In this document: piece by piece, positions 16,728 through 18,814 of the stretch | Position numbering within the stretch: position 1 is the stretch's first letter | Layout of the letters: every line of letters starts with the position of its first letter | Source: Deltaproteobacteria bacterium | GTDB lineage: Bacteria; Desulfobacterota; Desulfuromonadia; Desulfuromonadales; BM103 | Direction of reading: 5' to 3' | Assembly: GCA_024636155.1 (NCBI GenBank) | Contig: JAGXHM010000038.1 | Coordinates: 24,509-88,508 of the forward strand | Length of the DNA stretch: 64,000 nucleotides | Translations under genes and position numbers: made by a program | The notes under the pieces: generated by a model | What the model saw: only the letters and a program-made list of their open reading frames with translations | What the model was told of the DNA's origin: nothing | Databases searched by the model: none

Positions 16728-17501
16728 TTAACAGAATAAAGCTTTCGTCTGTTGTATGGATCGTTTCAGGTGATCAAGCGTGTGTGCCTCCAGTGTCATA
16801 CTGGGCAGTCTTGAGATACGCTGTAGTTTGATTTGTAAAGGTGTAAAGTCAATTGTTCCCTCACCAACCGGCAGGTGCTCGTCAGCTCTACCGTGGTTAT
16901 CGTGCAGATGTAGATGAAAAAGTCGTGGACTGATTGCATCCAACCACTCCGCCATAGGCCGTTTACCAAAGAGGTGCCAGTGTCCGGCATCAAAGCAGTG
17001 GCCAAACCACTCTGAATCAATTTCTTCCACCAGCTCCACCAGTAGATCAGGTGTTTCCTCATAAATATTCTCGACCGCCAAGCGACAATCACAAGCTGCC
17101 GCCTGCTCGATAAGTGGCGGAAAAAAATCCTTAGCCAGGGACTTCCATACCTGGTCAAGGTTCGGGTAGCGCCATTTATCAACGCCTGGGTGAATTACCA
17201 TTAAGTGGGCGTTCAGTTGCTCAGCGACAGATAACGATTGCTTGAGGCGGTGGTATGTTACTTGACGGATCAAAGGGTCAAGAGCACCTGGATTGAGATC
17301 GAAGAAGGGCGCGTGCACTGTTGGCCTGATCGCGGCTGTTGCAAGAATCTGCGCTACATGGTCGAGAAGGGTTGGGTCTAAAGTGTCAAGCTCTGGTCCC
17401 TTAATGGCGATTTCAGGAGCCATGTAGAGATTGAGAACCAGCTTCAGATAAGTATCAACCTGAGCCCATGGAACGTGTGCACCCAAATGGAGATTGCTCA
17501 C
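16728..17501 (-). CDS. Sugar phosphate isomerase/epimerase family TIM-barrel protein
   Basis: This 257-residue protein has the xylose-isomerase-like TIM barrel. Metal-ligand candidates appear in the right order: VHAPF, VIHPGVDK, LAVENIYEE, FDAGHWH, HLHDNHG and TLEAHT. This pattern is shared by AP endonuclease IV and sugar epimerases; the substrate cannot be read from sequence. The start is GTG at 17501, with GGAGG upstream inside the end of the K+ channel gene. The two genes overlap by 4 bases (GTGA), so they are coupled. Confidence 0.8.
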   Translation of the reverse strand: MSNLHLGAHVPWAQVDTYLKLVLNLYMAPEIAIKGPELDTLDPTLLDHVAQILATAAIRPTVHAPFFDLNPGALDPLIRQVTYHRLKQSLSVAEQLNAHLMVIHPGVDKWRYPNLDQVWKSLAKDFFPPLIEQAAACDCRLAVENIYEETPDLLVELVEEIDSEWFGHCFDAGHWHLFGKRPMAEWLDAISPRLFHLHLHDNHGRADEHLPVGEGTIDFTPLQIKLQRISRLPSMTLEAHTLDHLKRSIQQTKALFC

Positions 17502-17956
17502 AGTTGCGAACCTCCGGCAATCCTTTCAAGTTGGTGCGGGTTTTTTTCCACGACCACGAAAGGTGTTGGTCTGGATTGGAATTCGCGACAGATGCGATGC
17601 CCTATACGGCCAAAACCGCAAATGATGTAATGATCTCTGAGTTTGCTGATGCGACTTTCCAATTTCTTTCTCCCAAGAATTGTGCGCAGCTGACCTTCAA
17701 GCGTGAACTGAAGCAGACAGCTGAGGGTATAGGCAATCATGCCTGTGCCTCCGATGATCAGGACAATGGTGAATAATTTACCTTCTTGATACAGGGGTCG
17801 TACTTCATTAAAGCCAACGGTGGCCAAGGTAATGACAGTCATATAGAGGGCGTCAAATGATTGCCAGCCCTCAATTGTGCTATAGCCGAGCGTGCCGAGG
17901 GCAATGATGGTAACAAGCGAGGCAAGAGAAATGCGAAGGTGGCGAACGGGATCCAT
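17498..17956 (-). CDS. Truncated potassium channel with an incomplete RCK (TrkA-N) domain
   Basis: This 152-residue protein starts with a two-helix ion channel: a helix at about 9-25, selectivity filter TVGF at 46-49 and a second helix at about 61-85. A NAD-binding RCK domain begins with IICGFGRIGHR at 111-121. The protein stops soon after the second beta strand (VVVEKNP), whereas relatives continue for roughly 180 more residues. No continuation is visible in other frames, because the epimerase gene begins at the stop codon. The start ATG 17956 has AAAGGG upstream. It may still form a pore without ligand gating, or be a decayed gene. Confidence 0.8.
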   Translation of the reverse strand: MDPVRHLRISLASLVTIIALGTLGYSTIEGWQSFDALYMTVITLATVGFNEVRPLYQEGKLFTIVLIIGGTGMIAYTLSCLLQFTLEGQLRTILGRKKLESRISKLRDHYIICGFGRIGHRICREFQSRPTPFVVVEKNPHQLERIAGGSQL

Positions 17957-18053: not shown

Positions 18054-18081
18054 TTGACAATAGCTGTATACTGTATACAAT
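18054..18081 (+). promoter_or_regulatory. Promoter of the GntR-type regulator gene with embedded operator
   Basis: TTGACA at 18054-18059 and TACAAT at 18076-18081 are 16 bases apart. The operator GTATACTGTATAC at 18066-18078 fills the spacer and overlaps the -10 box, so binding there would block RNA polymerase. FadR-subfamily GntR proteins are known to bind TTGTATACAA-like sites, which makes autoregulation likely. Confidence 0.75.
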
Positions 18082-18112: not shown

Positions 18113-18814
18113 GTGCGCAGAAAACAAATAGAAAGACACCAAACGTTACGCGAAAAAATCCTGGAAACAATTCGGGATGCTATCCTGAAAGGAACCATGA
18201 AGCCAGGCGAGCGTGTTTCCGAGCCGGATTTGGCAGAACGTTTTGGCATCAGTCGAACACCAATCCGGGAGGCCTTCCGCCAGCTGGAATCGGAAGGTTA
18301 TCTGGAAGTAGTGCCACGCAAGGGAGCTGTGGTTGCGTCTCTCTCTGAGCGGGATATTGAAGAGTTTTATGCGATCAAGATAATTCTTGAAGGTTTTGCC
18401 GCCAGGATGGCCGCGGAAAAATTAACCGGGAAAGAGATTGAACGTCTTGAATCGATCAATGAGCGCCTGCACAAAATTGCCAAAGAAGGTGATGTGAAGA
18501 CCTTCTTCCGCGTTCACAATGAGTTCCATGAGGTTTTTATCAAGGCTGCCGGCAACGATAAGCTTTCGGAAATGATCAATCAGTTGGTCATGAAGTTCAA
18601 ACGTCTGCGCCTGGCCTCTTTGTCACAGCCGGGTCGCATGGAAGTTTCCATAGAAGATCATAGCGACATGATTCAGGCCTTTAAGGATCATGACGGCAAT
18701 CGTGCCGACAGTCTGATACGCCACGCAGCAACGATTGGAGCCGAGGTGTTGATTCAAAGCATGCCCCAGGCAGAAACGGAAAAAGCAAAGCTTCTTCCGC
18801 GAACTAGTCTTTAG
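18113..18814 (+). CDS. GntR family transcriptional regulator, FCD (FadR) subfamily
   Basis: This 233-residue regulator has an N-terminal winged helix with PGERVSEPDLAERFGISRTP and IREAFRQLESEGYLEVVPRKG. An all-helical FCD effector domain follows, with the metal-binding His/Asp pattern (HNEFHEVF and later HSDMIQAF and RHAATIG). Such proteins sense organic acids. The start is GTG 18113 with GGAG seven bases upstream. Its promoter contains the 13-bp palindrome that is also found before the atp operon and sfrB, so those are candidate targets. The ligand is unknown. Confidence 0.9.
   Translation: MRRKQIERHQTLREKILETIRDAILKGTMKPGERVSEPDLAERFGISRTPIREAFRQLESEGYLEVVPRKGAVVASLSERDIEEFYAIKIILEGFAARMAAEKLTGKEIERLESINERLHKIAKEGDVKTFFRVHNEFHEVFIKAAGNDKLSEMINQLVMKFKRLRLASLSQPGRMEVSIEDHSDMIQAFKDHDGNRADSLIRHAATIGAEVLIQSMPQAETEKAKLLPRTSL

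Follow-up and report, generated by a model that had tools for sequence, protein, structure and literature searches.

The channel gene and its neighbourhood

The window, that is, the whole 64,000-nt stretch of DNA that was analysed, carries on its reverse strand a short ion channel gene directly ahead of a TIM-barrel gene, with a divergently oriented regulator on the other side. The features of the locus, in the order in which the channel gene is read, are:

18113-18814, (+): divergent GntR/FCD-family regulator, 233 aa (Pfam GntR and FCD)
18065-18079, no strand: perfect palindrome TGTATACAGTATACA between the regulator and the channel gene (sequence reading)
17498-17956, (−): shortened single-RCK channel gene, encoding M1, the pore loop, M2, a linker, strands 1 and 2 of the RCK N-lobe and, at the C-terminus, the ancestral tail (ORF, translation, Pfam, orthologue identity)
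17660-17674, (−): retained putative internal start GGGAG-AAAGAAA-TTG at codon 99 (conserved in full-length homologues; its use in the window presumed)
17519-17530, (−): deletion joint, codons 143-146 (L-E-R-I) (alignment with four intact orthologues)
17511-17515, (−): GGAGG, the ribosome-binding sequence of the barrel gene, within the last codons (Gly-Gly) of the channel gene
17498-17501, (−): GTGA stop/start overlap formed by the channel TGA and the barrel GTG, an ancestral arrangement
16728-17501, (−): TIM-barrel gene (AP endonuclease 2/xylose-isomerase-like), 257 aa (PF01261, 3.7e-32)

The channel ORF begins with ATG and encodes 152 aa (ORF list and translation). The initial annotation had described its pore module as intact and its RCK domain as ending after the NAD-binding turn, and both descriptions hold. 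Ion_trans_2 matches residues 14-85 over profile positions 3-77 of 79 (7.5e-16), which corresponds to the two-helix pore module of an MthK-like single-RCK channel, while TrkA_N matches residues 110-147 over only profile positions 1-38 of 116, the RCK part ending just past the GFGRIG turn and the second strand, and a Pfam search found no TrkA_C in the protein. The gene is 84% identical over residues 1-146 to an intact orthologue (G010), which has both RCK_N and RCK_C in full; the window gene, with its incomplete RCK domain, is a truncated descendant of the MthK-like single-RCK family and not a functional member of it. At the downstream end the coordinates confirm that the channel stop (TGA, 17500-17498) overlaps the next start (GTG, 17501-17499) and that the GGAGG of the barrel gene lies inside the last channel codons, as had also been proposed. 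GGAGG is found at the matching place in several intact relatives.

The selectivity filter reads TVGFNE (17803-17820, (−)) and is not of the TVGYG type of K+-selective channels. In nearly all homologues the second glycine of GYG is replaced by Arg, Lys, Gln, Ser or Asn (Gly in 4 of 98), and a search of the available papers found no channel paper mentioning TVGFRE or TVGFKE filters. With a filter of the form TVGF(R/K/N)E, K+ selectivity should not be assumed for this family.

The barrel gene, first described as an epimerase, scores 112.4 bits against PF01261 (cut-off 31.1), and its best curated match is CbiR (NF041277, 1.8e-19), for which its 70.3 bits fall below the cut-off of 105. It is kept in nearly all members of the family, whether or not the channel survives, and synteny places the regulator beside the locus in most of the order. 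The palindrome TGTATACAGTATACA recurs in the same interval of relatives in which the channel is intact, cut or lost, and is likely to be a site at which the regulator would bind.

An internal deletion in a longer gene

In relatives from this order the matching position, before the same barrel gene, is occupied by a full-length ORF of some 335 aa, which indicates that the short ORF and its overlap are more than a chance arrangement; the genomes in which similar channels occur bear titles such as Desulfuromonadales, Geobacteraceae, Desulfuromonas and Malonomonas. The initial annotation had recommended a search for such full-length versions, which were found, whereas orthologues of the same short length, which it had named as a reason to abandon its reading, were not: intact orthologues are about 317-358 aa long, usually with the barrel gene next. 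Alignment with four intact orthologues shows that the window gene lacks 549 nt (183 codons), internally and in frame. Its tail, LERIAGGSQL, is that of the orthologues (LEKIAGGGRQ, LERIAGGFQQ, LEKLAAGHQQ and so on, in many of which stop and start likewise overlap), joined straight onto the second RCK strand. The earlier suggestion that a deletion had joined two genes is therefore correct as to the deletion of most of the RCK domain but not as to a junction of the channel with the next gene: because the tail, the overlap and the Shine-Dalgarno sequence match those of full-length relatives, they are ancestral, and gene fusion is ruled out. A sequencing error that restores the frame is excluded for the window gene, since 549 nt of homologous sequence are missing.

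The original ends of the deletion share a short similarity, CAxCTTGAA in RCK strand 2 and CAACTGGAAA near the end of the gene, and the deletion probably took place between these stretches, the exact breakpoint being ambiguous within them. When the missing part was sought elsewhere in the assembly, which is estimated to be 72% complete, only distant RCK paralogues (25-38% identity) came up, and a plasmid search with the locus gave no match.

Recurrent erosion of the channel gene

In the genus to which the window belongs, just three of the ten loci (G006, G007, G010) still hold an intact channel gene, and the broken ones, the window gene among them, each differ. Deletions remove 669 nt in G009, 708 nt in G008 and 726 nt in G001, which no longer has the pore; G002 is a stub that has lost the pore, retains GGGAGGAAGAAATTG and has an open frame into the overlap; and the genes of G003 and G005 are frameshifted. 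The pattern extends beyond the genus. A neighbouring genus (G018) lacks 348 nt, the channel of G040 (another family, on a single 4.66-Mb contig) ends at a new stop that overlaps the next ATG, and G096, from another family, combines an in-frame RCK deletion near the position of that in the window with a frameshift. Only parts of the channel are kept in G131, G124, G120, G037 and possibly G032, the remnants in G124 and G037 being short in-frame stubs that run up to the overlap, and 16 further loci have the barrel gene, usually with the GntR regulator, and no adjacent channel. A tree of the neighbouring genes places the loss events of the family on separate branches. Many of the genomes are metagenome assemblies, so the single-base frameshifts among these events may be errors. 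In G120 (locus L113, about 1.8-2.6 kb) the barrel gene follows a 254-codon ORF that resembles the channel only in its RCK_C part (residues 239-332); what lies upstream of that part appears unrelated.

We think it likely that this series reflects the recurrent decay of a dispensable channel, of which the leftover frame has been kept through translational coupling to the barrel gene. The window gene would then be in decay, derived from an MthK-like, ligand-gated channel with a single RCK domain that became dispensable in this genus and was cut, frameshifted, stubbed or lost many times, and its 152-aa product would have little or no role as a channel. The deletions themselves bear on the coupling. 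Those in five species (549, 669, 708, 726 and 348 nt) are all multiples of three and all keep the tail and the overlap, and when G096 is included 6 of 6 clean deletions are in frame into the barrel gene, which has a probability of 0.0014 under random phase, although which events count as clean was chosen after the events had been seen. With the barrel start set across the channel stop and the barrel ribosome site inside the channel end, ribosomes would have to translate as far as the overlap before they could initiate or reinitiate on the barrel gene, so that losses that keep frame and tail would be favoured. The in-frame bias fits such coupling through the overlap; it is no proof that the short protein works. 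Against this reading stand the frameshifts in G003, G005, G104 and G091, where the full frame was not kept, and some loci that translate the barrel gene without any channel frame.

A stronger form of the same explanation, which overlaps with it, is that selection maintains the remnant chiefly for its use as a translated leader ahead of the barrel gene, with translation entering from the main start or from an internal start at codon 99. The preservation of frame and overlap in all six clean deletions would be expected of a leader, as would the short stubs of G124 and G037 that end at the overlap and the poreless G002, with its GGGAGGAAGAAATTG and its open frame into the overlap, but the many loci without any channel frame mean that a leader is not essential in general, and we regard this version as rather doubtful.

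The main rival to decay is a constitutively open pore, in which the gating ring has been lost, the ungated channel is used and the cut is adaptive. The pore module of the window gene is complete, and the region of pore and filter is uninterrupted in five independent truncated copies, which keep M1-P-M2 (the window, G008, G009, G018 and G040), an observation that a pore-only role would also explain. Measures of selection on the truncated pore are mixed and underpowered. Pooled truncated branches have an omega of 0.24, below 1, which speaks for a used pore, on branches that include time before the cut; the value for G009 (0.12) likewise includes such time, that for G018 is 0.81, and the G008 branch is too short to read. 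In the window, the pore codons have evolved faster than the background (omega 0.336 against 0.111 in a branch test, 2dlnL 4.17), a result that runs against a working pore but is weak as a single value near 4 when several branches were tested singly. The retained RCK piece is not accelerated (omega 0.038), which suggests that the cut is recent relative to the branch. Other losses in the genus destroy the pore (G001, G002, G005), a cation pore that never closed would be a burden on the cell, and an orphan beta-alpha-beta fragment is still attached to the pore of the window gene. The genus-wide pattern of loss favours decay over an ungated channel, and the latter, weakly supported by comparison of the sequences, seems improbable.

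An artefact of assembly, in which the contig joined similar stretches, or a minority variant with the full-length gene also in the sample, would be in keeping with the incomplete state of the window assembly (137 contigs). We give this very little credence, as the two stretches that meet at the joint resemble each other imperfectly and over no more than about 10 nt, the same kind of deletion recurs across several separate assemblies, and G040, whose genome is a single contig, shows a related loss. A genuine family of short channels with a conserved end, suggested by several shortened copies in the genus that all have the same tail, is rejected, because that tail is the tail of the 335-aa gene, the breakpoints differ, the window-like G096 belongs to another family and carries a frameshift, and intact orthologues are full length.

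Under the preferred reading of decay with coupling, the related loci form a natural series in which one gene of an overlapping operon has been eroded independently and mostly in frame, with states that range from the full-length gene through a stub of a few dozen codons to nothing at all, and in which the price of breaking translational coupling could be tested.

A putative internal start in the linker and comparison with known systems

The linker between pore and RCK domain has a further conserved feature. In all 27 of the order's genes that were examined first, codons 95-99 read GGG-AGG/AGA-...-TTG/GTG/ATG; elsewhere in the channel genes of the order Arg is mostly CGN, and TTG accounts for only 87 of 979 Leu codons. 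Across 98 full-length homologues from Desulfuromonadia, Desulfobacterota, Nitrospirota and others, an NTG codon with a Shine-Dalgarno sequence is present at the codon-99 column in 95, the residue varying between Leu, Val and Met and the codon always being a start codon. The corresponding value in these homologues is 0.62 for the gene's own start and 0.11 for the next best column. Dual-RCK genes should not need an internal start for a free RCK domain; in a control set of 20 GsuK-like genes, whose sequences are closely related, the best column reached 0.44 and also lay near the pore-RCK linker.

This amounts to strong comparative evidence that codon 99 is a putative conserved internal start for a free RCK subunit. 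In the window such a start would now give only a 54-residue stub that ends at the same overlap. That single-RCK genes of several phyla make two proteins by way of codon 99, and that the leftover acts as a leader which favours in-frame losses, is a combined proposal that we advance tentatively, with a fair share of doubt. In G003 (L039) the A-run that separates the internal Shine-Dalgarno sequence from TTG has changed by one base, at codons 97-101, which leaves pore and RCK in two ORFs, the RCK one intact and with a start of its own; this is either a natural split channel or a sequencing error. Programmed frameshifting at GGGAGG-A6, which this change brought to mind, is not favoured because several species without the A-run keep the start codon.

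Among characterised proteins, CbiR, a cobamide-remodelling phosphodiesterase of Akkermansia (PMC7733943), belongs to the same AP-endonuclease-2 superfamily as the barrel gene, which differs in adjoining a channel and a GntR regulator. GsuK of Geobacter sulfurreducens (4gx0; PMC3510474) is an RCK channel from the same bacterial group, and a GsuK-sized paralogue of 567 aa is present in the genome of the window (G000:C113). However, GsuK has two RCK domains per subunit where the window gene had one, and its filter is canonical-like (TTLGFGD in the paralogues read). The best curated NCBIfam match for pore plus RCK is E. coli Kch (NF007828), although its 54 bits fall far short of the cut-off of 425, and Kch, unlike the window gene, is a six-helix channel. 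Kch is reported to have a putative internal start, removal of which left function unaltered according to PMC2920069 (citing Kuo 2003), a result that had left in doubt how widespread such starts are in bacteria.

The closest comparison is with MthK, the Ca2+-gated channel of Methanothermobacter (1lnq, 336 aa), which shares its length and its layout of two helices, a pore loop and one RCK_N plus RCK_C per subunit with the full-length orthologues of the window gene (phmmer 9.4e-36 over residues 14-327). The window copy differs in having lost most of the RCK domain, and its family differs in having TVGF(R/K/N)E in place of TVGYGD. MthK makes separate soluble RCK subunits from an internal start at Met107 (PMC9440719; PMC2920069), and in the bacterial relatives a ribosome site and start codon, which may serve the same purpose, lie in the corresponding linker. 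There is thus strong comparative evidence, drawn from gene sequences, that the MthK way of obtaining extra RCK domains from a single-RCK gene may be widespread in bacteria.
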